DNA from: Picocystis sp. L7 | Lineage: Eukaryota > Chlorophyta > Picocystophyceae > Picocystales > Picocystaceae | Assembly: GCA_020975725.1 (NCBI GenBank) | Contig: QXJR01000015.1 | Location: forward strand, 62,001-126,000 | Length of the DNA: 64,000 nucleotides | Direction: 5' to 3' | In this document: piece after piece, positions 1 to 40,240 of the stretch | Numbering within the stretch: the first letter of the stretch is position 1 | Layout of the letters: each line of letters opens with the position of its first letter | Translations under genes and position numbers: made by a program | The notes under the pieces: model-generated | Databases searched by the model: none | What the model saw: only the letters and a program-made list of their open reading frames with translations | Told to the model about the DNA's origin: nothing

Positions 1-3000
1 AAGCTGAAGAACAGGAGCTCCAGTTGGAAAAAAGCCAACTCAGCTCACAGGTAACACTCACAAAACAGGAACAGCAGCGATTGCAGGATTTGCTGGACTC
101 ATATGCAGACTGCTTCCAGCCCCGGAAGGAACCACCCACTGAACGAGTCCCGGGTGAAAACTTCAGCATCCCGTTACAACCAGGAACATCACCCCAGTTC
201 ACCCAATATTACAGGCTATCGCCATCGGAGCGCGAGGAGTTACGCAAATTGCTTGCAGAATATGTGGATGCAGGAAAGATGGATATTTGTGCTGGCTCAG
301 CATGGGGGGCGCCCGTGATCCTCGTTCCGAAGAAGGACGGTGGATGGCGCGTCGTCTTTGACTATCGTAAACTGAACAACGTTGCGATCAAAGACAGATA
401 TCCCCTACCGCGCATCGACGATTTCTTGCAAGGTCTTGGTGGATCCCAGTTCTTTCCAGCAATGGATGCATTGGATGGGTTTCACCAGCTGCCCATGAAC
501 CCAGCAGACATTGACAAGACTGCAGTACAGACCCCTTTTGGTAGCTACACCTGGAGGGTGATGCCAATGGGAATTGCAAATGCACCTGCAGCTTTTCAAA
601 GGATGATGAATAGAATCTTCGGTCACTTGACCTTTGCCAAGGTCTATGTGGACGATATTCTGATTCACTCCAGTAGCAAGGAAGCCCACTTCCAGCATCT
701 GGAGGAGTTGTTGCAGGTGTGCAGGACTGCCGACATCCGCTTGAAGCGGTCAAAATGTCATTTTTTCTGTACCACTCTGGACTGGGTAGGTTTCCGCATC
801 GAAAACCAAGAGCTGCGATGTTCGCCCCAAAAGCTCAACAAGATACAGCATTTCCCCAAGCCAAGGACACAGAAAGAAAATATGGCCTTTCTTGGCCTCT
901 GCCAGTTCTATCTCAGATTTGTGCCACACTATTCAGACATTGCAGCCCCACTTACAGAATTGAACAAGAAAAAATACGCTCACGATTTCCAACGCTATTG
1001 GATGGAACAGCATGATCAAGCCTTCCAGCAACTCGTAAAGCATCTCACCACTGCCCCAGCACTGGTGCTGTTCAATGAGGATCGCCCCACTCGGGTAGAG
1101 ACCGATGCGTCCAGCATTGGGATGGGGGCTGTGCTGCAGCAAGAAATCGCCCCAGGCGAGTGGCGGCCAGTCGAATATTGGAGTCGCAAGTTCAATGCAG
1201 CCCAGCGTAACTATCACGCTGCGGAACGCGAGACTTGCGCTATCGTCTACGCACTGGCGCATTGGAGACATCTGCTATTTGGGTGCCCATTTACTGTCAT
1301 CACCGACAACACAGCATCCAAATACTTGACAACCAAAAGTGTCCAACAGTTATCGCCACGCGATGCCCGCTGGATCGAAAAGTTAGCGTACTACGCTCCG
1401 TTCAGCGTAGAGTATCGCCCTGGAAAAGAAAATGTGGGAGCCGACTATTTCTCCCGTCATCCGGTGAACGATGCAGCAGTACCGTTACGAACAATGACGA
1501 TCCTGGACCTCTGTGCAGGAATGGGCACGACACTTCGCGCCCTCGAACTGGCCATACCTGAAGATGGAGCACTCACTATCAATTACATTGCAGTGGAACA
1601 AGATCCAGATTGTAGAGCAGTAATTCAAAGGGTCTTCAACTCAGTACACTTGACCCGTCCTGGACTCTTCATACGGGAAGATATATTCAGATATGGAAAC
1701 GACGTGCGCACCCTTGCGCATCGCCGGAAACTTCCCACGGTGGACTTGCTGATTGCAGGAGTACCCTGCCAGCCATTCTCACGTGCCAAGACTTCAACCA
1801 CAGACCCGCCATTGGGCCTGCGTGACGCACGAGAGTTATTCACAGCCATCAGGGACATACGAACCCGTATACCAACAGAACACTCCTACATCGTAGAGTG
1901 TACTCCGTTCGCAGCCCACCTGCAGAATGATCTGGAGCGCATCAGCGAGTGGTTGGGAGAACCGCAGGAACACCACATGGATGAATACTCCCCGCAGCAG
2001 CGAACAAGACTTTGCTGGACGAATCTTCCACCGCCGAAACCCGATCATGACTTGCTGTCCACAGTACCGCTTACGTGGCAGGACTGCCTGGAAGAGGGAT
2101 CGACGCCCCCGCTCGATTCACGGGGCCTGCCCCGCTTAAAATGCCCAACACTCATGGCTTCCGCCAACAGTCACAGTGACCGTTCGCGTACCACCTGGGT
2201 AGTGGGACAAGACAATCTTCTGCGCGAACTTTCCATCCAGGAGCGCGAAAAACTGGTAGGCATGCAGCCTGAAGATACTGCAGGGCACAGAATCACACCT
2301 GCAGCAAGACGACGAATGTGCGGCAATGCGTTCCCCGTCGGCTGGCTCGCTGTCCTTATTGCAGACATGCACAAGCTGTGGAATCGTACACTGCTAGGTA
2401 CCCGTAGTGCAGATAATACAACTTGTGGTTCTGTGAACGCAATACGGACGCAGCGCAGCTCGTCCAACGACAATGGGTCAGCAGCACACATCACCAACGT
2501 ACCGCTGCTATCGCGTATTCGCACAGCAATCTTGCATGACAAAGACTATCAAAACAAACTGAAGCATCCACCTCCAGGTTACATCTGCAGAGATGGCCTC
2601 TTATTCCGCGACAACGCAACATCACCACTGGGACACTATGCAGGACCAGCAATTCTCCAAGCCCCCTTGGACAACGCTCTCCGCCAAGACATGCTCCACC
2701 TGGTGCACGATCGCGCCCACTTTGGCGCCCATCGTACATATGAAGCTGCCCGCCGACACTTTTATTGGCCCGGCATGAAGGCCCACATCAAGCAGTTTGT
2801 GGCACGGTGTCCCACCTGCCAGAGGATGAAGCCTACAAACACCAGCCGTGCGCGCCCGCAGCTGCCAGAAATGAGGTATTATCCACATCCTTTTCATACA
2901 GTAGTGCTTGATGTGGTAGAAGGCCTGCCACTCACCCCTGATCATCACAATGCAGTGATCACGGTAGTGGATCGGCTTACGAAGTTCGCTGTTTACGTTC

Positions 3001-4319
3001 CCATGCATACATCATGGTCAGCCACTCGTCAAGCTCGTGCCTTACTGGACAATGTGGTGTACAAGTACCACACACCCACTATCATACATACCGATAATGG
3101 TCCAGCCTATCGGAAGCTGTTCGCTGCTTATTGCACAGCTTTGGGGTCTAGCCACAAGACAGGCACCCCTTATCATTCACAGTCTCAAGGTCCGGTCGAA
3201 CGCCAACATCGCACGCTGTTGCAGACACTGCGAACGATGACCGATAAACCAGAGAATTGGGATCAGTATTTGCAGGCCGCAGCGCACGCATACAACGACA
3301 GCGTGCACTCGCTTTTGGAACGCAGCCCCTTTGAAATGCTATATGGCTGCCCTTCCCGCCTACCGTGGCACCTGCAGTTGGTGACCACTGGTACTGAAAC
3401 AAGAAATCTGCTTACTTCCCCAAACAAAATGATCACTGGATTGCTTACAGCACAGAGAAAAGTATACAGTGCCATTCAAGACTTACTGGTGGACCGCGCC
3501 AAACAACAGGCTGCCTCCACCCAACATCTTCCTGCTCGTACGTTCAAGCCTGGTGATTGGGTAAAGTTACAATACGGACTGAAGGACACGCAGGATCGCC
3601 CGAAGCTCGAACCTTACTGGGAAGGACCGTACTGCATCGATAAAGCACTTGGCAATGATGCATACAGTTTAGTGCTGCCCCCTGGCACACGCTTTCAGAA
3701 CCGCTTTCACGTGGACCGCCTGCTACCATGGATTGATTCAGATCTGTCCCTCTTTCCATTGGACCATCCTATACAGCCCTTGGACAGTCTTCCCACCTCA
3801 GTGCAGGAGACAACGATGGATCGATGGCCAGTTGCACGGTACTTGGTGCGAGACTTTTCACAGTTTCCTGCAAAGGCAATACGCTACTGGGTTCGCGGAC
3901 ACGATCAGCAAACTTACTGGATTGATGAAGATGCAACAATCCTGGATGAAATATTGGACTTGGAAGAAACTAATGGATGCTTGCCGGAGTGCGGCATCAG
4001 CAAACGCAATCGTCATGCAGTGGAACAACACAAGCAGGGTGCATACCTGCTTACACCGAATCCAGTACTGCAAAACACCTGGACTTGGACATCCATGCCT
4101 TACAGCACCCGTCAACGACAGCAGTGGCAGCCACCTACCAAACTTCCTGGATCAGTGGTTATGGACGCTTTTGAAGTGGATCAAGGCGTGCAACATTATC
4201 AAGGCATCGTTCAATCGGATGGACATACCGTACTTTGGACAGACGGTTACAAGACTCGCCACACAACAACAGAGGTCAGAAGCATGCTTTACAACCCTGT
4301 TGCGGTGGCATACAGCTAG
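1..4319 (+). mobile_element. Ty3/gypsy-type LTR retrotransposon, pol region with a captured cytosine DNA methyltransferase domain (5' end outside window)
   Basis: One reading frame open from the left window edge to a stop at 4317-4319 encodes, in order, reverse transcriptase (YVDD motif near residue 207), RNase H (begins near VETDASS, about residue 360), a C5-cytosine DNA methyltransferase domain (about residues 490-790), an H2C2 zinc-binding/integrase region (from about residue 890) and a C-terminal region that may be chromodomain-like. RT then RNase H before integrase is the Ty3/gypsy order. The methyltransferase shows a motif I-like DLCAGMGTTL, the PCQP catalytic-loop motif, a QQRTR motif and a GNAFPVGW motif X, and its WQDCLEEG segment recalls DNMT3-type enzymes. 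Gag and protease must lie to the left of the window. The visible part looks whole, which suggests a young copy. Order and family are read directly; activity is not claimed. Confidence 0.93.
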
Positions 4320-5235
4320 TGTTTTCTTGCTGCTACGCAGGGAACCGGGAGACTGTAAGGGACTCATCGTCCCAGGCCCCCCATCGAGGAGCCTCTTTCT
4401 CCCCTTACTGTCCTCAGCCGCCCACACAAGGGCAGGGGACTCGGATTTGCATGCTTGAATGGATGGTTGGGGTTGGGGTATTCCCTTACAGTAGGGAAAC
4501 CCCCACCTGTACCAGACGGACCGGGGCGAGGTTCCCCCTCACGGGATCCTCGGTTCAGCACCGATCGGTGCCCCGACCAGGTGGAGGTTTCGACCCCCAG
4601 GTCGGCTGCCCTCCACACGATCCGGTGCTCGAAACCGGGGGATCGAATCTACTGGCTCGATCCGATCGAGGGATCGAACGGCCAGGAGCGCCCCAGCCGG
4701 ATGCATCGACCAGGTCGCCGGTGCTCCACCATCCGATGGAGCACAGGAGCCGCCAGGAGATCTTGGCCCTTGGCCGTCTTGGGCGGATAAGGCCTGGCGA
4801 GACCATCCCCCTGTGCGAGACCTCTCTAGGACCTCTCACGGGACTTTGTAATCGAACCAGAACCTTCCTGACTCCAGCTCTCAAGCGTGCTCAGGTTCTC
4901 CACGCGACCACACCAGCCACCTTGCTCCGCCTCACGAAAAGTGCTTTCATCCAAGCTTACCGCACGGTGATTTGCCGTGCGAGTAACAAGAACCACAACA
5001 ATGCCTACCTCGGGGAATCCACTAGGGGCTTCTGTAGCCAAGGGACGGCCACTAAAATCTTCCCCTGCCACAGGGAAGACTCCACTTGTGAAGGACGAAC
5101 CAATTTGTGAACTCTTGCCCGCGCATGTGCCTCTCACGAGCGCTTTGAGCCTTCCCTGGCTTGTTCGCACCTCTTTGGCGCGTGCACCCACGCTTGGTCT
5201 ACCTTGGAGGCCATCTTCCTACATAGTTTTCTAGC
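4320..5235 (+). repeat. Probable 3' LTR and element tail (borders not fixed)
   Basis: The stretch directly after the pol stop has no convincing gene and is where the polypurine tract and 3' LTR of the element should lie. A TGTAAGGG near 4355 and a CCTACA near 5221-5226 would suit TG...CA ends. The 5' LTR is outside the window, so no direct repeat can be matched and both borders are guesses. Confidence 0.35.
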
Positions 5236-14165: not shown

Positions 14166-17100
14166 ATGGCGACGACGATGCGCGCCACGTGCTGCGCTCC
14201 TGCGCCGCGTGCACGGGCCCATGCGCGGACCAAAAGGAGCAGAGAGACGTGGAAGACGTCCAGACGGATCAGCTGGGTGACTGAAGCCGTGGAAAGCCGA
14301 GCGGAACGGTTCAGCAAGGCGTTGGAAGGGAAGCCATGGGAACAGGCCGAAGACGATGCAAAATTGCTGATTCGAGACGCCGAAGATACCATGCACGAAG
14401 CGAGAACGGAGTTGGAACGCGTGGAAGAAGATATGGACAAGATATTCCAGGACACATTCCAAGGGATTGTCGTACAACTGGGAGAAGAAGAGTCGAAGGA
14501 GGACACGACAGAGACGGGAACCGACAAGCCACGAATGGACGTGCAAGAGCTGTTCAAGAAAGGGAGAAAGAAGCCCACGGGTACCAGGAAAACAGTTGTG
14601 ATTGAAAATATGAGCGAAGAGGAGTTTGCCGAGCTTGGGAGGAAAGATCCAGAACTCTTCCGGGGCCTCACTGAAGCAGCTAGTCGCAAGAATAAGGATG
14701 CATGGCTTGCATTTCAGACCAAAGCTCACGAACTGAAACTCAAACGAGAGAGGATCACTCGAGCACTTGAGTCTGCAGAGGTAGATCTCAGGGCATTGAT
14801 ACAACAGGCAGATCTTGCCAATCAAGCGCATGAACAAGAGCTGGCCACAGACCAAGGGGAATCCGTGGAGGAGGAGCGGAAGATTGCTCCCAAAACTGGG
14901 CAAGCGCGTATTGTTCTGATCACCGGCTTTGAATCCTTCAATGTTGCGTTGTATGTTGATGTAGCAGAGAGGTTGAAGGATCTCACAGGGGGAGATGTGG
15001 TCTTATCTGTGTTCTCCGATAGAGACATCACTTTGAAAGCGGATGTGGTGGCGGATGAACTGGACAAAGCAGATGTGATTTTTGCCTCTCTCTTGTTTGA
15101 TTTTGATCAGGTTGAATGGTTGAGAGAACGGATTGGGCGCATACCTATCAGGCTCATCTTTGAATCAAGCCTGGAACTGATGTCACAAACGTCAATTGGT
15201 AGCTTTCAAATGAAACCTGGGCAGGGCGGTGAGAAAGCAGGCCCTCCAGCACCCGTTAAAGCTGTGTTGTCCAAGTTTGGCAGTGGAAGAGAAGAGGATC
15301 GAATGGTTGGTTACTTGAGCTTCCTCAAGGTTGGACCCAAGCTTCTACAGTTTGTGCCTGGAAAGAGGGCGAAGGATTTGAGGAATTGGTTGACTGTCTA
15401 TAGCTACTGGAACCAAGGCGGAGCTGAGAATGTTGCTTCCATGTTTGTGTATCTCGTGAACGAGTACCTATTGGATACTGGCCTTCAATCCGCACCGGTG
15501 GAAGAGACTCCTGCACTCGGGTTGGTCCACCCGGGTAGAAAAGGATTCTTCGATAGCCCAGCTGAGTACTTGGTATGGCACAAGACAGAATATGAAGGCG
15601 GGAGTACTCTACCAGCTGACGCTCCAGTTGTGGGTCTTCTTCTCTACAGAAAGCACGTCATTACAAAGCAATTCTACATTGCTCAGCTCATCTATGCTCT
15701 AGAGTCAGAGGGGTTGAGACCTGTACCTGTTTTTATCAACGGTGTGGAAGCGCATACAATCGTACGGGATTGGTTCACATCAGCCTCTGAGGTAGAAGCA
15801 GTGTCCAATGGGAAATTGTCTAGGAATCCAACTCTGAGGCGCGATGCAGTGTTTGTGGACGCAGTTGTCTCCACCATTGGATTTCCGCTGGTAGGGGGAC
15901 CAGCTGGCAGCATGGAGAGTGGTAGGCAACAAGATGTGGCAAAGAGTATCCTGCAGTCTAAGAACGTGCCTTACGTTGTGGCTGCGCCGCTCCTGATTCA
16001 AGACGTCAGCAGCTGGGTACGAGATGGTATTCAAGGGCTCCAGACAGTGGTGATGTATGCCCTTCCAGAGCTAGACGGAGCCATCGACACTGTGCCACTT
16101 GGAGGACTTGTGGGTGATAACATTTTCCTTGCCGAAGAGCGAGTTAAGAGGCTGGCAAGTCGCATACTTTCCTGGGTGAATCTCAGAAAGCTCAAGTCCT
16201 TTGATAGAAAGGTGGCGATTGTGCTGTATGGCTTCCCGCCAGGAGTAGGGGCAACCGGCACCGCAGCACTACTCAATGTACCAGAGTCGTTATCTCGGAT
16301 GCTCTCGACTCTTAAGTCGCAGGGCTACGACGTGGGAGAATTCCAGGGCGACGCTGATGGTGAAATGATTGTGCAAGCTTTGCGACGACTTGAGGACCAA
16401 CGGGCCATATCGCTCGGTGCGAAAGGGTTCAGTAATCTTGAGCAAGATGACCTGAAACGCATGGGAGGTCAATTCTTTGCGAATGATGTTTCGCCTTCGC
16501 GTCTCAAAGAGTGGCTTGAATACCCAAGAGAATGGGGCCCATCCGAATGGGGCCCTCAGCCCACCTTGCCAGACAGCAAGTTCCTTTTGAAGAACTTGGA
16601 GAAGCAGTGGGGCAGTTTGGACGCGTATCAGGGTTTGGGGACGTCCGCCGATGGTAACTTTATCGTGTCAGGGATCCAGTTTGGCAAGGTATTTGTCACA
16701 GTCCAGCCCGCACTTGGAATAGAGGGAGATCCATTGAGGTTGTTGTTCCAGAGAGACCTTTGTCCACACCCTCAGTACTGCGCCTTCTACAAATGGCTCC
16801 AAAATGACTTTGCTGCGGATGCAGTCATTCATTTTGGAATGCATGGAACTGTGGAATGGTTACCTGGATCACCGCTGGGAAACACAGGTTATAGCTGGAG
16901 TGACGTACTCATGGGCAATCTCCCCAACATATACATATATGCTGCCAACAACCCGTCGGAATCTATCATAGCCAAGCGGCGTGGTTACGGGACAATCGTC
17001 TCCTACAATGTGCCTCCGTATGGCAGGGCCGGGCTCTACAAAGAACTGGCAACGCTGAAGGATGTGTTGATCGAGTACAGGGAGAATCCTGTGGCCAATG

Positions 17101-18833
17101 CTAGTTTAAAAGGCACCATTGTTGCCAATGCTGATAGCGCAGGCTTGCTTGCAGACTGTCCACTTTTAGACGCGCAAGGTTTGCAGGTGGATCTCACTCC
17201 AGAATTGGCTGATGAGATGCCAGATGAAGACTTTGAGTCTTACGCGTCTGAACTCTACCAGTATTTGCAACTGGTAGAGAACAGGCTGTTTTCGGAAGGT
17301 TTGCATACACTTGGAGCAGCACCCGACCAAAAGCAAATGGAAGGCTACCTTTCCGCGTACTTTGAGGATGAGTTACCCTCAGAAGCAGTAGAAGCGATTG
17401 CTCGGTCGACTGAAGGTTATGAAGCCATGCGAGCGCAGTTAGAAAGAATCTGGCACCAGGGTGCACAGCTGTCTACCAGCGATGCTGAAAGTGCCCTTCA
17501 AAAGTGCAGAGAAGCTGTGGAAATTAGAGACTTGCTTAACCGCAACACAGAGGAGATGGATGCTATAGTGCGTGCCTTGAATGGAGAGTACATCTGTCCG
17601 GAAGCAGGAGGTGACCTTTTGCGCGATGGTCCGGGAGTACTCCCCACTGGTAGGAATATTCATGCTCTGGATCCCTACAGAATGCCCAGTCCTACAGCAA
17701 TGGAAAGAGGTGCGTCTGCTGCTCAAGCCATCCTCAGCCAGCATCGTGAATCTCACAAAGGTGCATGGCCGGAAACAGTGGCTGTTTCCCTCTGGGGACT
17801 GGATTCTATCAAAACCAGGGGGGAAGCCCTGGCTATTGTTCTTGAGTTGATCGGTGCAAGGCCCGTAAAGGAAGGAACTGGTCGTATAGTGCGATTTGAG
17901 CTCCAACCGTTGGATGAGCTGATCCCTGCTGGTCGTCCTCGGATTGACGTCCTTTGCAACACCAGTGGCATTTTCCGTGATTCATTTGCAAACATCATTG
18001 AGCTACTTGACGATGCATTCCAACGTGCAGCCACTGCAGATGAGCCGCTGGAACTGAACTATATTAAAAAGCATGCTGGCGAAATGGTGTCGAATGGTTT
18101 TAAGAACCCCGCAGCACGCATCTTTAGTAATCCTGCAGGCGACTATGGGAGCATGGTGAACGAGCGCGTGGGGGCAGGGGATTGGGAGCAGGGCGAAGAG
18201 TTGGGTGATACTTGGCAAAGTAGGTACAGTTTTAGTTATGGCCGTGGAGGTGAGAGAGGCACCGCAAGGCCTGAAGTTCTCTCGGCTTTACTCAAAACCA
18301 CCGACCGGGTGGTTCAGCAAGTCGATAGCGTTGAGTATGGGCTTACTGATATCCAAGAATATATGGCCAACACCGGTGCCCTCAAGAAGGCTGCTGAAAC
18401 GGCTAGGGGTGGAGCAAAAGTAGGCTGCAGTATTGTTGAGGCCTTTGGAAAGGACGTGAAGCCTAGGGAGCTGGACCAGGTCCTTCGCCTAGAGTACAGG
18501 TCCAGGTTGCTCAATCCCAAATGGGCAGAGGCCATGGCATCCCAGGGGAGTGGAGGTGCGTACGAGATAAGCCAACGTATGACAGCACTGATTGGTTGGG
18601 GAGCCACGACAGACTTCAAAGAGAACTGGGTGTATGACCAAGCCGCTGAAACATATGCACTTGATCCAGCAATGGCGGAGAAGTTGCGAAGGAACAACCC
18701 ACAGGCGTTCCAAAATGTTGTTCGCCGTTTTTTGGAAGCATCAGGCCGTGGAATGTGGGATGCTGATGAAAGCACACTGGAGAAGCTGCGTGCACTTTAT
18801 GGGGAATTAGACGATGAGCTTGAAGGAGTCTAG
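14166..18833 (+). CDS. CHLH: Magnesium chelatase subunit H (CHLH2-like) with a long coiled-coil N-terminal extension
   Basis: This is the porphyrin-binding CobN-type subunit of Mg-chelatase, which inserts Mg2+ into protoporphyrin IX at the first committed step of chlorophyll synthesis in the plastid. The product has 1555 residues; land-plant CHLH has about 1380. Family homology begins only near residue 246 (RIVLITGFESFNVALYVDV) and runs to the end. Key conserved stretches are LPELDGAIDTVPLGG, VQPALGIEGDPLRLLF, HFGMHGTVEWLPG, YAANNPSESIIAKRRGYG, VLPTGRNIHALDP and EASGRGMWDA. The first 40 residues look like a plastid transit peptide; residues about 40-240 are highly charged and probably coiled coil. 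The HFGMHGTVEWLPG form, rather than HFGTHGSLEFMPG of plant CHLH1, suggests the second, divergent isoform known in green algae. Single uninterrupted exon. Confidence 0.95.
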   Translation: MATTMRATCCAPAPRARAHARTKRSRETWKTSRRISWVTEAVESRAERFSKALEGKPWEQAEDDAKLLIRDAEDTMHEARTELERVEEDMDKIFQDTFQGIVVQLGEEESKEDTTETGTDKPRMDVQELFKKGRKKPTGTRKTVVIENMSEEEFAELGRKDPELFRGLTEAASRKNKDAWLAFQTKAHELKLKRERITRALESAEVDLRALIQQADLANQAHEQELATDQGESVEEERKIAPKTGQARIVLITGFESFNVALYVDVAERLKDLTGGDVVLSVFSDRDITLKADVVADELDKADVIFASLLFDFDQVEWLRERIGRIPIRLIFESSLELMSQTSIGSFQMKPGQGGEKAGPPAPVKAVLSKFGSGREEDRMVGYLSFLKVGPKLLQFVPGKRAKDLRNWLTVYSYWNQGGAENVASMFVYLVNEYLLDTGLQSAPVEETPALGLVHPGRKGFFDSPAEYLVWHKTEYEGGSTLPADAPVVGLLLYRKHVITKQFYIAQLIYALESEGLRPVPVFINGVEAHTIVRDWFTSASEVEAVSNGKLSRNPTLRRDAVFVDAVVSTIGFPLVGGPAGSMESGRQQDVAKSILQSKNVPYVVAAPLLIQDVSSWVRDGIQGLQTVVMYALPELDGAIDTVPLGGLVGDNIFLAEERVKRLASRILSWVNLRKLKSFDRKVAIVLYGFPPGVGATGTAALLNVPESLSRMLSTLKSQGYDVGEFQGDADGEMIVQALRRLEDQRAISLGAKGFSNLEQDDLKRMGGQFFANDVSPSRLKEWLEYPREWGPSEWGPQPTLPDSKFLLKNLEKQWGSLDAYQGLGTSADGNFIVSGIQFGKVFVTVQPALGIEGDPLRLLFQRDLCPHPQYCAFYKWLQNDFAADAVIHFGMHGTVEWLPGSPLGNTGYSWSDVLMGNLPNIYIYAANNPSESIIAKRRGYGTIVSYNVPPYGRAGLYKELATLKDVLIEYRENPVANASLKGTIVANADSAGLLADCPLLDAQGLQVDLTPELADEMPDEDFESYASELYQYLQLVENRLFSEGLHTLGAAPDQKQMEGYLSAYFEDELPSEAVEAIARSTEGYEAMRAQLERIWHQGAQLSTSDAESALQKCREAVEIRDLLNRNTEEMDAIVRALNGEYICPEAGGDLLRDGPGVLPTGRNIHALDPYRMPSPTAMERGASAAQAILSQHRESHKGAWPETVAVSLWGLDSIKTRGEALAIVLELIGARPVKEGTGRIVRFELQPLDELIPAGRPRIDVLCNTSGIFRDSFANIIELLDDAFQRAATADEPLELNYIKKHAGEMVSNGFKNPAARIFSNPAGDYGSMVNERVGAGDWEQGEELGDTWQSRYSFSYGRGGERGTARPEVLSALLKTTDRVVQQVDSVEYGLTDIQEYMANTGALKKAAETARGGAKVGCSIVEAFGKDVKPRELDQVLRLEYRSRLLNPKWAEAMASQGSGGAYEISQRMTALIGWGATTDFKENWVYDQAAETYALDPAMAEKLRRNNPQAFQNVVRRFLEASGRGMWDADESTLEKLRALYGELDDELEGV

Positions 18834-19077: not shown

Positions 19078-22000
19078 CTATCCTGTTTGGACAAGCACAT
19101 TGGCAAAATTTTCTGGCACCACCTTGCTCGCACATTCATGCTCGATGTCTCTGTATTTACCAAGGATGGCCTTCATACTGAATTGTATCGGCTCCGGAAA
19201 CTCGTCCTCTTTGTCTGACATGTTGCCGAACAGGCGTTCCTCCACATCGAACAAAAGACACTCCGCCTTACCGTCATTCTGCTGGGCTGTGATGGCTTTT
19301 CGTAAGTCTGCCAGAAGGGCAACCGTAGCATGGGAAGTAGATCTTGGGGCCAACCAATCATCGTGGTGATGGGCCGTCAGCTGCACAACCTGCGTCAAGG
19401 TGAGTGCTGGGCACACTCTCCCGAGAAACTCCCCTGGGTGAACACCTTGTCTGTGAGCCCGCGACAAGTCCTCTTTGTGGACCTGGAGGAAATGCGCGGC
19501 TTCTTCAATATGACACAGGGATGCAGAAATTTCATGCTCACTCCCACACCATCCCTCTCCATCGTGCTTGGCCCATTCTTCAATCATGACGATGCCTGCA
19601 GAAATAGATCTAGCATTTCTAGTGCTACAGCACTCGCGTCGCATCAGCAGAGTGTTGAGAAGTTCTGCATCGATGAACCTGAAGACACGTAGAAAAAAGT
19701 ACCGTACGGTGGCGGGTGGTACCATTTTGCTCTGAAGAACCTGAAGGGCAGTGGTCAGACTCGACACAACGTTCCTCCAAGGGCTCGCAAGCAAATCGTC
19801 CTCTCCATCCAGCAATGGCAGTTCACTCTTGATGGAAGAGGGTGCTGATGCTTTCAAGGAAGGTGGTTTGCTAGGATGCTGAACATCGAGCTTAGCCTGG
19901 CTGCATGCCACGAGGTGGGGTTCCAGTTCGGACTTGACAGTAGTTAAGACGAGGTGGGCCAGGCGAGTGATCAAGGATCGTACCAGCTGACGGCAAGAAG
20001 ATAAGTGCCTCCTTGTGTGACTTTCCTCCGAGGATGCATATCCGTGAGCCAGGAAGGCTTCCAAAGCAATGGATACAGACAGCCAATGGGCTTGCGTTTC
20101 TAACATGCCAGAAGAGGCGACTCGACGCACTCTTGAAGTCACGACGTTTAGGGCACCATCGACGCTGAGCCATTCGTCAGTTCCATCGTAAAATCCACCA
20201 GTTGCAGGCAGAACAGGTTTGGTTGTCCTGCACGACCATTTGTACAAGCAATCAGCGATGAGCCATGCACTGTGTGGGACACCAAACACAACTTTTGCAA
20301 GGGCTCTGCTCGAACCTCCAACGAAGGACTTGGACGCATCCTTCAAGCCATTGCGCTCTAAGTGGATCGTTTCAGTATTCCTGGAGAAGGCTGCTCGCAC
20401 AAACCTGTCCACTTCAGACCGGTGGACGTAGTTTGCTGCACTCTTTGGTCGAGAGGCAGGCTTCTTGGCACTTGCCGAAGATGGTGTTTTGGCCTCTAGC
20501 ACTTGATTTTGCAAAATGTCGAGGCGGCATAGGGCATCGGCCAGCCTCACTTCGTAGTCTGTTGCGGTGGCTCTCCACTGGTCAATTTCTTGGCTTTCTT
20601 GCTCCAACTGTGTCTCAAGCTTCTGGATCCTGGATTTTTCCTCTTGACCGGCAATTCTTGACTCCTCAAGCAAGGTGCCCACCTGGTCAAGCTCCACCAA
20701 CAACTTCAAAACTTTGCCCTCATTAGCTGCATTTTCCTCTTGCAGACTAAGCATTCTTTCTTTGATTTCCTCTTCACTAGCGACCTTCTCTTCGAGAATT
20801 TTAATTTTAGAGAGGAGCGAGTCATTTTCTGATTCTTTCTGGGCCAGTTGGGTTCTCAAAGCAAAAAGTTCATCCTGGTAGAAGTGAAGATCTCTCTGCA
20901 ACTCTTCACATTCATTGGCTTGAATCGTCGATGCGTTTTGCAGCTGCAAAAGCAGGTGTTCCTTTGCTTCAAGCTTCTCTTGGAGTTGCAAAGTCGAAGC
21001 TGTGAGTGGCTCCCCAAGCACTGGGGATGCAGCCGAATCTGCTGAAGGTGGAGCAGTACTTTCTGGAGCTTCGGTCGATGTGTCTACTACCATGGGGCCT
21101 GCCGTGGATCTAAGAGCTTTTAACTCCACCTCCCTTTCTTCCAAAGATATCTGTAGCTCCACCAACGAAGCTTTGAGCTGTGCATTTTCTTCTTCCAATC
21201 TAGAAACATACTGCTGCTTGGCTTTTCTCTTCTGGACACGATTCATTGCAAGTTTTTTACGTACAAATTTCTGCAAAACAATGGCAGCTTGTTCTCTTCG
21301 CCGTCTTACTAATGCTTTCTTCCCTGCTTCAGTGTCCTTGAGGTACCTCTGTCTTGCCAACCACATACGCATGAAGGATTGAATGCGGATGGCCGACTGT
21401 TCCTGTTTGTGCTCAATGAAAGCCCTCCTGACCAAAGCCATGCGCCAATATGATTGGATGGAGATAGCAGCCTTTTCGACACGGAGCCGGCGCAACTTTT
21501 TACGGGCTGCTAAACCCCTTACTCCTGCTTGCAATTGGATGGTTGAACTGCGCAATTTTTGGTACCACTGCTTGGCCTTATAGGACTTCCAACAAGCCTG
21601 CATCAGAAGCGCAGCTTCTGTCCACCGTTGGTTGACTGCAGACTCAAGAACAGCAAGACAACCTGCTTTTAGAAAGACGCGCGTGTGCCCAAGTTGCCAG
21701 CCATTGGCACCGGTCACCTGCAACACGTTTTTTGTGATGGCTTTAGCGGCATGCTCATCCCACCCCATCTTTGGACCATACTTGGTTGTGGGAATCAGTA
21801 GACCATACCGAATTGCAAATTGAAGGTAGAACTTTCGAGCAGGAAACCCCTGATTGGCGATGCGCACCGCTTCCATCACTCCTCCACAGCGCAGCTGTTC
21901 CAAAGAGTAGGACGAGTCGAATTCGCCTGGCTCGCCCTGAGGATTTGGCTTGATGCAGCGAATGTAATGTGGCTGTGTTTTTCGTAGGGCTCTCATCAGC

Positions 22001-23898
22001 TCATTCAACTGCTGCTTGAATTGGAACCCCACGCTTGTCAACCGGAAACTAGACTTCGTTGGCGATTGAGCCTCTTGCAGTAAGAATATCTCTTTCAGAA
22101 AATTAAAATTGGATTGTGAAATCAAGCTGGTGTGTTCAGCCACTACATAGTCCCTGTTTTTCTCCAACAAATGCTCGCTGTTGTAGACCACCTGTCCTGC
22201 ATAGTGGTTGACAGCAAAGCGACCTGGCGTTCGGTCGGATGCTTCGAAGCGTGGGTGAGAGTTAAGATGCTTGCAAAGCGAGACACAGAGGTCTTTGTGC
22301 GTAGTCTTTGGTAAGCGGCATGCCTCGTCGATTTGGGACAAAATTCCATTGGGCTCTGCCTCGATGACATCTAGAACGTCCTGGTTGTCTCGAAAGTCAA
22401 TGTACGACCAATCTATGCCTTCGTTCTGGTAGTCCTCTTGCTCCCTTTTAAAAATCTGCTGGTTGAATTGTTGCTGTAACTTTTCATTGGCCAAGTTGAT
22501 GCACAGTTGCTCGAAAGAATTCTGATCAAAGCTTTCAAAACCATAGATGTCAAGGATACTGATGGTCCTCTGTTCGGTGTCACGATCCTCGCCCGATGCA
22601 TCGGCGCTTCCCAGACACTGGTTGATTGCCCCCACCAGCCAATCGAACAACCTAGCGTAGATTGTCTTTGCAAGCGAGTTTCTAGATTCTGTTGCGGCAC
22701 TGGCACCGAGAGGCTTTATGATTTTCTCTTTACGGGCCTCGATCACTCGTTGAGTTAGTGCTGCAAATAAGGCATGAGAAGAGCACCCTAGCAGCTCTGC
22801 TGCGTGCCCCAAGTGGGTCTCTGCATCGGTATCCGACAGGTTTGCCCCTTCAACCATCCCATCCAAGGAATCTGAAAAGGTAATGTTTCCAAGATGAAGA
22901 ACTGCGGCCACGGTTTGCAGGAGGCTGTCTATTTTCTGGTCGGAGATGCCCATGGCTCTCATGGCATCCATAGTCTCTAAGAACTGCTCTGCATCACTGG
23001 ATGCACCGAGGTGGTAGGTTTGGCTCTGCGACAGGTACCGAAAGCTCCTGGCCCCCCCGTGGAGCTTGTACTTCTCCCTTTGCATGGGGCTAGCTTCGGC
23101 ACAGAGTTGGTAGAAAATGTGGTAGCTTCGCTCTGATAGGGCTAAGTCTACGACCCTCGTTCTCTCCAGTAGGTACGTGCGAATTTTTGCCCCCCTGATG
23201 TTCCCTCGTTGGTCGAAGGCCAATTCCACGTACTTGCCGAACCGGGAGGAGTTGTCATTCCTCACGGTCTTGGCGTTCCCGAAAGCTTCGAGGAGGGGAT
23301 TTGATCTCAGCACCTGGGCTTCCACAATTTTGAACGTCTTTTCACCTCGTGTTTCCTCTCCTGACCTTCTTTTCGTCCCTTTCTGCGCCAGGTATTGCAT
23401 GACGTACTTGGCAGATTCTGTCTTCCCTGCCCCGCTCTCCCCGGCGATGAGGATGGACTGGGGTTGACCGTCTTCCATCATGCTTCTGAAGGCTTGTTCA
23501 GCCACAGCATAGACGTGTGGTTTGACTTGTCCTTGTACAGCTCCAGCATACATGGCCATGGCAGGTGCGCCGTAGAGGGGCACCCTTCTCATGGGATTGA
23601 CTGCTACCAGGATGGGTCCACAGTAGGTGTAGATGAAATCCAGCTGATACCTCGACCTGAGGTTGTGGAGCACGCCTGGTTCGTGTATGAAGTCGAGCTG
23701 TATGAGATCGTCTACGCCCACGTCTTCTTCGTTCTGCGGGAGCACGTCCGACGCTTGTACCTCTTGGACGTTGGTTTCGTCTTCCAGCACCACTTGGACG
23801 TGTCCTGAGGATCCTTCCTTCTCCACTACCGTCCCGGATCGCCATGGATCTCCCTGCCCTCCTCCTCCACGCACCCAAACCCTCGTTCCCGTCGCCAT
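19078..23898 (-). CDS. Class XI-type (myosin V-like) unconventional myosin
   Basis: An actin-based organelle and vesicle motor of 1606 residues from the ATG at 23898. Domains in order: SH3-like N-terminus (about 1-50); motor domain (about 60-720) with P-loop GESGAGKTE, switch I NDNSSRFGKY and switch II DIYGFESF; a neck with about five or six IQ motifs (about 740-880, e.g. AALLMQACWKSYKAKQWY, AAISIQSYWRMALVRR); a predicted dimerising coiled coil (about 890-1130); and a globular tail with a DIL-type domain (about 1330-1570). This is the plant myosin XI layout. A few codons upstream are open but start with no ATG. There is no intron in 4.8 kb. The convergent neighbour is CHLH. Confidence 0.96.
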   Translation of the reverse strand: MATGTRVWVRGGGGQGDPWRSGTVVEKEGSSGHVQVVLEDETNVQEVQASDVLPQNEEDVGVDDLIQLDFIHEPGVLHNLRSRYQLDFIYTYCGPILVAVNPMRRVPLYGAPAMAMYAGAVQGQVKPHVYAVAEQAFRSMMEDGQPQSILIAGESGAGKTESAKYVMQYLAQKGTKRRSGEETRGEKTFKIVEAQVLRSNPLLEAFGNAKTVRNDNSSRFGKYVELAFDQRGNIRGAKIRTYLLERTRVVDLALSERSYHIFYQLCAEASPMQREKYKLHGGARSFRYLSQSQTYHLGASSDAEQFLETMDAMRAMGISDQKIDSLLQTVAAVLHLGNITFSDSLDGMVEGANLSDTDAETHLGHAAELLGCSSHALFAALTQRVIEARKEKIIKPLGASAATESRNSLAKTIYARLFDWLVGAINQCLGSADASGEDRDTEQRTISILDIYGFESFDQNSFEQLCINLANEKLQQQFNQQIFKREQEDYQNEGIDWSYIDFRDNQDVLDVIEAEPNGILSQIDEACRLPKTTHKDLCVSLCKHLNSHPRFEASDRTPGRFAVNHYAGQVVYNSEHLLEKNRDYVVAEHTSLISQSNFNFLKEIFLLQEAQSPTKSSFRLTSVGFQFKQQLNELMRALRKTQPHYIRCIKPNPQGEPGEFDSSYSLEQLRCGGVMEAVRIANQGFPARKFYLQFAIRYGLLIPTTKYGPKMGWDEHAAKAITKNVLQVTGANGWQLGHTRVFLKAGCLAVLESAVNQRWTEAALLMQACWKSYKAKQWYQKLRSSTIQLQAGVRGLAARKKLRRLRVEKAAISIQSYWRMALVRRAFIEHKQEQSAIRIQSFMRMWLARQRYLKDTEAGKKALVRRRREQAAIVLQKFVRKKLAMNRVQKRKAKQQYVSRLEEENAQLKASLVELQISLEEREVELKALRSTAGPMVVDTSTEAPESTAPPSADSAASPVLGEPLTASTLQLQEKLEAKEHLLLQLQNASTIQANECEELQRDLHFYQDELFALRTQLAQKESENDSLLSKIKILEEKVASEEEIKERMLSLQEENAANEGKVLKLLVELDQVGTLLEESRIAGQEEKSRIQKLETQLEQESQEIDQWRATATDYEVRLADALCRLDILQNQVLEAKTPSSASAKKPASRPKSAANYVHRSEVDRFVRAAFSRNTETIHLERNGLKDASKSFVGGSSRALAKVVFGVPHSAWLIADCLYKWSCRTTKPVLPATGGFYDGTDEWLSVDGALNVVTSRVRRVASSGMLETQAHWLSVSIALEAFLAHGYASSEESHTRRHLSSCRQLVRSLITRLAHLVLTTVKSELEPHLVACSQAKLDVQHPSKPPSLKASAPSSIKSELPLLDGEDDLLASPWRNVVSSLTTALQVLQSKMVPPATVRYFFLRVFRFIDAELLNTLLMRRECCSTRNARSISAGIVMIEEWAKHDGEGWCGSEHEISASLCHIEEAAHFLQVHKEDLSRAHRQGVHPGEFLGRVCPALTLTQVVQLTAHHHDDWLAPRSTSHATVALLADLRKAITAQQNDGKAECLLFDVEERLFGNMSDKEDEFPEPIQFSMKAILGKYRDIEHECASKVVPENFANVLVQTG

Positions 23899-23999
23899 CG
23901 CCCCGCCTGATCGCGTTTCTGACCTGTCCAACGTCGGCGTCGGATGCGCTTCCCAATTGGCGAACGTGTCTTCGAAGCTATCCCTTCCTCACCCTCGGG

Positions 24000-37919: not shown

Positions 37920-39620
37920 TCACCTTCTGTACCGCGCTCGTTTGAGGTTGAAGTAGAGCTGCAGCACGCCACGGTCGAATACGGATTTGAACCCACGTTT
38001 CCTGCTGTATTCCCAATCTTTGTTCACGATGCGGAAGGCGATGTCTTCGTACGGAGGACCGGCATGGAAGCGTAGAATGCAGGTGTCTCCGTCGGAGTTG
38101 CTGCGGTCCGGCTCCACCTTGTACGTGGGCGTTTTCTCCTTCTCGATGAGGTCGGGATAGAAGATGTTGAACTTGTACCCCTGTATGGTCTTGGGAGGCG
38201 GGTTGTCGTGGTCATAGTGCGTGCGATTGTACTTGTTCCAGTCGTATCCCGTGTGGACCCGATTGAAATACTTGGGCTTCCGGGGCCTGTACTTGTCTTG
38301 CCAAGCGTACTTTTGGTTGGCCAGCTCCACCTCTTCGTTGAAGCCCGCTCCGACCTCTTCTCCTTCGGCCGCCACGCCCATGGCTCCGAGCGCGCTCCTT
38401 CGAAACTCCTCCTCTGGATCCGTGGGTTGGTGATGCGTTGCGGAAGGAACGCCGATGGAGCCCGCGTGCGTTCCTACGTTACGTTCCATCCCTGGATCCT
38501 GCTCTTGGTGCTGTCCGTGCCCCTTGGAGCGTTCTCCGATGTCTTCCTCCGCGTCTTCTCCCTTCTTGCGTGGTGGAGCCACGTGAGCGAACTTTTGGAA
38601 GGGTCTGGGTGCGGTTTCTTTCTTCGGCATCGATTGCACGCGGAGGAGTATGTCTTTCAGCTTCACCTTGGCTTGCTGCACCTTGAGCCTGTCCAGCACT
38701 TCTTCCCAGTAGTCGTATTCGGTGGTATTCCCACGGTGCAGGGTGTCTTGGATGTTGTGTTGCAGTTCGTCCAGTTCGGGTCCGGTCCTGTCGGCGAACA
38801 TCCGCTGCACGTCCTTCTCGATCTCGTGGTACATCTTCCTGGACATCCTCTTGCATCGTTCTTGGACGGCCTCTTCCTTTTGGTGCTTCAAGGTGGATTC
38901 GCAGAGCACCGACAGGGCGTCCCAGAACTGGATGCAGGTTTCGTCTTCCCGATCGAGTTCTTTCTGTTCGAGCACGTCTTGGGCGAGTTCTTCCTTCTCG
39001 TTCGCGTCGAGGCTGTCTACGATCCGTTGCGGCGTCGGCATGTCGAGGTCTTCTTTTTCTGGGAAGTGGAGCATGCGTGCGAAGATGTCGACGGCTTTGG
39101 CACGTCCTGCGACCAGTCTCATGTGGGAGCGTATCCTGGCTTGTTCGAGGAGGAACTTCTCTTCTTTTTTCTCCAGTTCCACGGATTCCGCCCACGCTCT
39201 CTCTCGGCTCATCCTTTGGTTCTCTTCTTCCATCTGCGTCCTCGTCCTTTCCCTTTCTTCTCGTTCTCGTTTCACTTTCTCCACTTCTCGCATCCGTTCT
39301 TCGTGTCGCTTCCGTTCGGCTTGTTCGTTCATCTCTTCTGGCGTGGCGCCTTGGAGGATCTTCTCTTCGATCTTCTTCCCCCACACGAACCTCTGCGAAA
39401 GCTTGTTGTCTCCGAACGGATTGTCTTCGTCCGTGTATCCCACCACGTCCGTCTTCCCTTGGACTTGTTGTTGGAGGGTTTTGGCGACGCGACGGGCCTC
39501 CTTCTTGGCCCGCTTTCGACGCAAACGTTCCTCTTCCGATTCCCTTGGATCCGAACTCCCTTCCAAACCCTCCCAAGCGCGTGCCTTGGCGTCCACGTGG
39601 AATGAACGAGCTCGATCCAT
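37920..39620 (-). CDS. CACTIN: Cactin, spliceosome-associated protein
   Basis: Cactin is a conserved nuclear protein of the catalytic spliceosome. The ATG at 39620 gives 566 residues. The N-terminal third is a long charged helix (KKEARRVAKTLQQQ, then a Glu/Arg/Lys coiled coil to about 160). The mid domain (about 150-340) contains RMLHFPEKEDLDMPTPQ and the CIQFWDALSVLCES stretch. The C-terminal cactin domain (about 440-566) is very well conserved: KYRPRKPKYFNRVHTGYDWN, YNRTHYDHDNPPPK, QGYKFNIFYPDL and the terminal FDRGVLQLYFNLKRARYRR. Single exon. An open frame continues six codons upstream of this ATG without another ATG. Confidence 0.96.
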   Translation of the reverse strand: MDRARSFHVDAKARAWEGLEGSSDPRESEEERLRRKRAKKEARRVAKTLQQQVQGKTDVVGYTDEDNPFGDNKLSQRFVWGKKIEEKILQGATPEEMNEQAERKRHEERMREVEKVKREREERERTRTQMEEENQRMSRERAWAESVELEKKEEKFLLEQARIRSHMRLVAGRAKAVDIFARMLHFPEKEDLDMPTPQRIVDSLDANEKEELAQDVLEQKELDREDETCIQFWDALSVLCESTLKHQKEEAVQERCKRMSRKMYHEIEKDVQRMFADRTGPELDELQHNIQDTLHRGNTTEYDYWEEVLDRLKVQQAKVKLKDILLRVQSMPKKETAPRPFQKFAHVAPPRKKGEDAEEDIGERSKGHGQHQEQDPGMERNVGTHAGSIGVPSATHHQPTDPEEEFRRSALGAMGVAAEGEEVGAGFNEEVELANQKYAWQDKYRPRKPKYFNRVHTGYDWNKYNRTHYDHDNPPPKTIQGYKFNIFYPDLIEKEKTPTYKVEPDRSNSDGDTCILRFHAGPPYEDIAFRIVNKDWEYSRKRGFKSVFDRGVLQLYFNLKRARYRR

Positions 39621-39654
39621 CGCGCGACGCGAAACCAATCCTTCCCTAAACCGA

Positions 39655-40240
39655 TCTCACACCCTCTCTGCTTGTTCTCTCTCTCTCTCTGTCCCTCCCT
39701 CTCGGCCTGCATCCTCGGTATTCTCTCGGTGTAAAGGCTCTGTCTCTGTCTCTGTCTCTCTGTCTCTGTCTCTGTCTCTGTCTCTCTCTCTGTCTCTGTC
39801 TCTCTGTCTCTCCTTGTCTCTGCCTGTTCTCCCTTCCACGATCTCTCTCCCTGTCGGCCTATACTCTCTGTCTCTGTCTCTGTCCATTCTCCCTTCCACG
39901 ATCTCTCTCCCTCTCGGCCTATATTCTCTGTCTGTGTGGATGCTGTGTCTTTGTCTCTGTCTCTGTCCATTCTCTGTCTCTGTCCTTGTCTCTGCCTGTT
40001 CTCCCTCCCTCGATCTCTCTCCCTCTCGGCCTATATTCTCTGTCTGTGTGGATGCTCTGTCTCTGTCCATTCTCCCTTCCACGATCTCTCTCCCTGTCGG
40101 CCTATATTCTCTGTCTCTGTCTCTGTCCATTCTCCCTTCCACGATCTCTCTCGGTGTGTATTCTCTCCATCTCTCTTGGTCTCCATCTGCGTGTGTGCGT
40201 GTGTGGGTGTGTGTCTCCCTCTCCCTCTCCCTGCTCCCTG
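39655..40240. repeat. TCTCTG-type microsatellite/minisatellite array upstream of cactin
   Basis: Runs of (TCTCTG)n are interspersed with a longer recurring unit, CATTCTCCCTTCCACGATCTC next to CTCCCTGTCGGCCTATATTC, present about four to five times. It starts about 35 bp upstream of the cactin ATG and is GA-rich on the cactin coding strand. Confidence 0.92.

Follow-up and report, generated by a model that had tools for sequence, protein, structure and literature searches.

A DNMT3-like cytosine methyltransferase domain in the pol frame of young Ty3/gypsy retrotransposons of a green-lineage alga

What is a silencing enzyme doing inside the pol frame of a retrotransposon? The question is raised by the first lines of the window, that is, the whole stretch of 64,000 nucleotides that was analysed (C13:62001-126000 of G000, a 20.5-Mb genome in 30 contigs). 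An open frame on the + strand, like the other coding features below, occupies 3..4319 and was read as the 3′ part of pol; its start lies 855 bp upstream, outside the window, and it counts 1,724 codons in total. Along this single frame, Pfam detected a reverse transcriptase (PF00078, RVT_1; 324..800, 1.2e-32, residues 108-266), an RNase H (PF17917; 1080..1394, 5.7e-33, residues 360-464), a methyltransferase (PF00145, DNA_methylase), and then the zinc-binding domain (PF17921, Integrase_H2C2; 2670..2834, 7.1e-21, residues 890-944) and the core (PF00665, rve; 2886..3179, 5e-11, residues 962-1059) of an integrase. This order bears out the preliminary description, which had placed a cytosine methyltransferase between the RNase H and the integrase of a Ty3/gypsy pol. 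The best solved relatives of the reverse transcriptase and RNase H were 4ol8 (2.6e-85) and the Ty3-G Gag-Pol 7q5b (7.7e-85), the reverse transcriptase being nearest to Ty3 pol, and no phage-integrase (tyrosine recombinase) match was obtained by Pfam in the pol frame of the window. Further 3′ of the integrase, an SH3-like domain (PF24626, SH3_Tf2-1; 3552..3725) scored 1.3e-05 and 25.7 bits, under the curated cut-off of 30. The C-terminal tail (4140..4316) is Tudor-like solely by its alignment with two other families of elements, B and C, described below. PF21743 matched the tails of L023, L024 and L025 at ~2e-04, under the Pfam cut-off, and gave no match in the pol of the window copy. A chromodomain in the tail was an impression by eye and was dropped, Pfam giving no match at E 1.

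The boundaries of the element were then read. A 3′ LTR of 648 bp (4353..5000, + strand) is identical to the 5′ LTR, which lies outside the window at C13:59547-60194, and is followed by the 3′ copy of a 4-bp target duplication, ATGC (5001..5004, by eye). The full element, with its two LTRs, spans C13:59547-67000. Its gag has 369 codons and a CCHC knuckle, and is overlapped by pol in the -1 frame; an AAAAAAC slip site is found inside this overlap in 9/9 elements of the same family (family A) that were examined. The protease motif of family A reads DTL and not DTG in 11/11 rows and in L069 (by eye), with weak Pfam protease matches (0.0077 in L069, for example); families B, C and D retain DTG. Given the identical LTRs, the insertion is recent, which bears out the recent activity suggested earlier from the intact frame. 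Among 16 elements read by eye for target duplications, counting L025, which begins at the edge of its locus, 10 had one: 4 bp long at 8 family-A elements, 5 bp long at 2 family-B elements. None was seen at L010, L017, L018, L021 and L022. The two LTRs of an element differed at 0 to 9 sites in these 16 elements, and at none in four of them. We conclude from the sequence that the element is, almost certainly, a young and intact-looking LTR retrotransposon of the Ty3/gypsy group, from a green-lineage alga, with a DNMT3-like domain.

Used as a query, the window methyltransferase found at least 129 places in its own genome, all at 50% identity or more: 128 belong to family A and one to family B. 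Copies were also gathered by a reverse transcriptase search, because selection by the methyltransferase itself was to be avoided; 132 family-A rows were kept of 150, and 18 rows of a family D were excluded. The methyltransferase was present downstream of the family-A reverse transcriptase in 58/58 frames of at least 1,660 codons, in 25/25 frames of 1,000-1,659 codons, and in 35/49 shorter ones; two of the 14 short misses (L042 and L047) do hold it, in a broken form. The possibility that the locus is unique and misassembled, or that its methyltransferase region aligns with no C5-methyltransferase, had been raised at the outset. The region does align, and an assembly artefact or chance fusion at a single locus is practically negligible, being refuted by the at least 129 places, by the target duplications at 10/16 elements, and by the same architecture in contigs from two other data sets.

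These two contigs came from a prokaryote collection, in which 25 related loci were found: two proved to be gypsy elements binned as bacteria, and the others are partial matches. L069, from a Rhodobacteraceae bin of sediment origin, is a pol of family A whose methyltransferase is 62% identical to the query. L070, in bin TMED88, combines a long gag frame with a pol of 1,692 codons, in which a methyltransferase 29% identical lies between RNase H and integrase. Both are most simply explained as eukaryotic contigs misbinned as bacteria; given their architecture, further eukaryotes therefore probably have it. Viral contigs yielded 20 loci, with 27-37% identity to parts of the domain. No viral or bacterial donor of the domain was found among the 20 viral-contig and 25 prokaryote loci, of which L049, L069 and L070 were opened.

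We then asked what kind of methyltransferase this is. The domain (1485..2378) matches PF00145 at 3e-09 in the first third only (residues 498-597); the rest is seen through an alignment of 21 copies, a DNMT3A profile match and the predicted structure. The profile match (5.5e-12) covers positions 70-292 of 297, and DNMT3 is the closest among solved C5-methyltransferases both by profile and by predicted fold, so the DNMT3-like signature announced by the preliminary description stands. A tree whose single outside row was a DNMT3A fragment, on a very long branch, gave no clear placement of the domain with respect to DNMT3. In the alignment, made of copies picked for being full-length and drawn from families A, B and C, motifs I, IV, VI, VIII and X follow each other in unrearranged order. 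The GVPCQPFS stretch, which we take to be motif IV (1758..1781), holds the catalytic Cys, and this Cys and seven of the eight positions are invariant in 21/21 domains. Glu-Cys at 1896..1901 (EC, not EN), presumably motif VI, is invariant in 21/21, its Glu aligning with that of the ENV of DNMT3A. QxRxR at 1995..2009, which we assume to be motif VIII, is also invariant in 21/21, and in GNAxP at 2322..2336, by our assumption motif X, GNA is invariant and P is found in at least 90% of the 21 domains. Finite dN/dS values for the domain were obtained for 10 of 15 pairs and ranged from 0.055 to 0.375; synonymous sites were nearly saturated for two of these values (0.055 and 0.13), and fully saturated in the other 5 pairs. 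Between L009 and L017, non-synonymous change was 0.138 in the methyltransferase, 0.135 in the integrase and 0.057 in the reverse transcriptase. The methyltransferase domain is under purifying selection.

Traces of methylation were looked for in the copies themselves. In seven family-A copies that are nearly identical, the transition rate per site was 0.045 at CG, 0.063 at CHG, 0.024 at CHH and 0.024 at A/T; C-to-T type changes were more frequent at CG plus CHG than at CHH (p 5e-07). Transversions at CHG were elevated as well (p 0.005). Neither L017/L018 nor L023/L024, compared as pairs, gave a clear CG or CHG excess. This substitution pattern fits copies that may have been methylated, and does not indicate the methylating agent. 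Relative to expectation, CpG stood at 0.67-0.82 in 16 elements (families A to C) and at 0.99 in one family-D element. We dropped low CpG as a proof of methylation, because the window has two host genes with equally low values (0.68-0.69).

The single-frame domain order, the invariant Cys and Glu, the low dN/dS and the CG/CHG excess count for an element with the enzyme as a standing working part, and the deviation of motif VI from ENV counts against it; we consider that the element-borne domain is probably an active DNA methyltransferase. In published assays, isolated SymbioDIRS-Dnmt3 domains produced CG methylation in yeast, and the Klebsormidium gypsy and SymbioLINE domains were inactive, a result judged inconclusive by the authors (PMC5890265, in the part available). 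That inactivity of a gypsy DNMT3 domain, the altered motif VI and the proximity of the integrase would suit a domain that mainly binds DNA or chromatin beside the integrase, with methylation weak or lost, and constrained for folding and binding. The invariance of Cys, Glu, QxRxR and GNA in 21/21 domains across three families exceeds the needs of binding alone, however, and we regard this explanation as quite unlikely.

If the enzyme is active, it would be made in the same gag-pol precursor as the reverse transcriptase and the integrase, and could be packed into the particle. There it may methylate the double-stranded cDNA that has just been made, starting with CG, either ahead of integration or at that step. 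The new copy would then land pre-marked, with a mark that the DNMT1 and chromomethylase of the host could maintain, and this mark would hide the cDNA from a defence against foreign DNA and limit damage to the host. Other targets can be imagined: host DNA near the insertion, rival elements that would be silenced, the RNA of the element, or invading viral DNA. RNA and host-genome targets are discussed in the accessible part of de Mendoza 2018 (PMC5890265), and a defence against DNA viruses is proposed in that of PMC6338049. Such targets are nevertheless unlikely, as the location within pol ties the enzyme to the particle and the cDNA. That the element's own cDNA is the main target falls, in our judgement, just short of an even balance. 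The statement as a whole, a young Ty3/gypsy element with a DNMT3-like enzyme as a standing working part that methylates its own cDNA, we hold to be evenly balanced.

Family A is not alone in this genome. Family B was found at 21 methyltransferase places (at 69% or more) and family C at 9 places by reverse transcriptase (at 86% or more). Their RT-RNase H regions are 38-43% identical to that of family A, and in both the methyltransferase occupies the same RNase H-integrase joint. Family D has pol frames of up to ~2,670 codons, 18 reverse transcriptase rows, and a Dam domain at the C-terminus (PF05869, 2.7e-11; L094 7466-7894, G000 C25:792501-802500). No recognisable DNMT was found in family D. 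At its RNase H-integrase joint, 18 further copies were 97-99% alike, a recent burst. With its 18 rows and no recognisable DNMT, family D shows that the spread of gypsy elements in this genome does not require one, which counts against the overall reading. The same joint of family D holds ~200 residues, a candidate dead DNMT, with a weak resemblance to the start of the DNMT: HMMER gave 0.4 bits, with at least 3/200 shuffles higher, the hhalign score was reached by 2/150 shuffles, and a global alignment was clear with 1/4 sequences. Between protease and reverse transcriptase, family B (L023 and L024) has a stretch matching the family-D Dam domain, with a local score of 121 against a maximum of 61 in 2,000 shuffles. 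Its own Pfam Dam match is just 0.11, and the normal catalytic motif is absent (by eye). A single family-B pol thus appears to combine a degenerate Dam-like stretch with a DNMT3-like domain.

Does the methyltransferase share the history of its backbones? Distances were compared as ratios (bootstrap ranges in brackets). Within A, methyltransferase distances were 1.48 times those of RT-RNase H (1.17-1.80) and 1.04 times those of the integrase (0.84-1.32). Between A and B these ratios were 0.72 (0.57-0.91) and 0.53 (0.41-0.65). For A-C they were 1.13 and 0.77 (0.60-0.95), for B-C 1.06 and 1.02, and for A-L070 1.08 and 0.85; families B and C were each represented by a single backbone, and the distances were simple ones. 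Families A and B are 47-50% identical in the methyltransferase, 38-41% in RT-RNase H, 28-33% in the integrase and 18% immediately beyond the methyltransferase domain. The divergence of the methyltransferase is not stalled at 50%, because A-C and B-C identities are 34-39%. Trees built from the backbones join D and A as sisters and set B and C apart. The simplest reading seems to be that the methyltransferases of A and B are younger than their backbones, and were moved by recombination between elements. Against such a transfer, the A-C integrase ratio is below 1 too, and the methyltransferases of A and B form no supported pair in a rooted tree.

An algal or protist precedent for methyltransferase capture, mentioned in the preliminary description, does exist (de Mendoza 2018, PMC5890265), and the comparisons that follow rely on the part of that paper available to us. 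KnitGypsy-Dnmt3 of Klebsormidium nitens also has a Dnmt3-related domain in a gypsy Pol frame of a green-lineage alga, is also multi-copy, and its DNMT is also under purifying selection. Its repeats are DIRS-like, whereas plain direct LTRs with 4-5 bp duplications are found here; DIRS-like repeats being absent, the present elements were therefore not classed as KnitGypsy-Dnmt3. They further differ, K. nitens being compared by description only, by forming three divergent families, between two of which the module seems to have moved. SymbioDIRS-Dnmt3 of dinoflagellates shares a Dnmt3-type domain in a retrotransposon Pol, but is a DIRS element with a tyrosine recombinase, in place of the DDE-type integrase seen here. 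SymbioLINE-Dnmt, also of dinoflagellates, is likewise a retrotransposon-borne C5-methyltransferase, but a LINE with an orphan DNMT in ORF1, in contrast to our LTR elements, whose methyltransferase is DNMT3-like. Retrotransposons with a Dam domain, DIRS elements among them, are cited there and in the available part of PMC6338049, and families B and D have Dam-type stretches. Dam methyltransferases act on adenine and are not related to the C5 domain; in this genome the Dam-type stretches occur in gypsy elements and, in B, alongside the DNMT. Among the papers listed by open-access full-text searches, none described such elements in this host or in a chlorophyte, most subscription papers being outside this scope. 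The kind is known from Klebsormidium; as far as these searches show, what is new is that elements of the plain-LTR form occur in a small genome of the green lineage, in 58/58 long-frame A copies, in three families and in two environmental contigs, together with the likely inter-family transfer and the Dam-like stretch beside the DNMT in B. Its retention in 58/58 long-frame A copies, its presence in three gypsy families and its apparent move between two suggest that the uptake of a silencing enzyme by retrotransposons is more than a single curiosity. The long retention of such an enzyme by a parasite argues that self-methylation pays, and a 20-Mb genome with many young copies would make the question testable.

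Finally, we surveyed the methyltransferases of the host. A DNMT1 has a replication-foci domain and two BAH stretches, a chromomethylase has BAH and chromo domains, a 415-codon C5-methyltransferase frame was taken for a putative DNMT2, and another frame combines a C5-methyltransferase with PWWP. A rearranged methyltransferase of DRM type was found at L044 533-1099 (- strand; G000 C20:155901-157000), matching 4onj at 4.3e-28 and DRM2 7l4h at 9.4e-23. In the portions available, Hoguin 2023 (PMC9998398) reports no DNMT3 among MMETSP green algae, and Sarre 2025 (PMC12344493) describes, for chlorophytes and charophytes, a ChloroDNMT that often comes with PWWP, and finds DRM confined to streptophytes. 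Set against the latter statement, the host DRM leaves two options: a streptophyte host whose genome is very small, or a wider distribution of DRM. Since the DNMT3 relative found in the host is this rearranged DRM, the elements would be the carriers of an unrearranged DNMT3-type enzyme. Tentatively, and with more doubt than confidence, the DNMT3-like module could be self-contained and pass among Ty3/gypsy families in host cells into the RNase H-integrase joint, so that green-algal retrotransposons would carry the unrearranged enzyme and provide their own copies with de novo methylation, family B with a Dam-like stretch too.

A few further observations were made. A copia-type frame (L028 3-2918, - strand; G000 C1:784001-794000) adjoins the chromomethylase gene. 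In the window, stop-free frames for a magnesium-chelatase subunit H type protein (1,555 aa; 14166-18833) and a DIL-tailed myosin (1,617 aa; 19078-23931) stand face to face (Pfam); together with the DNMT set, these genes are a green-lineage set. At 38001-40000, the + strand has an excess of T over A, with an AT skew of -0.473, the strongest by far of 32 blocks.
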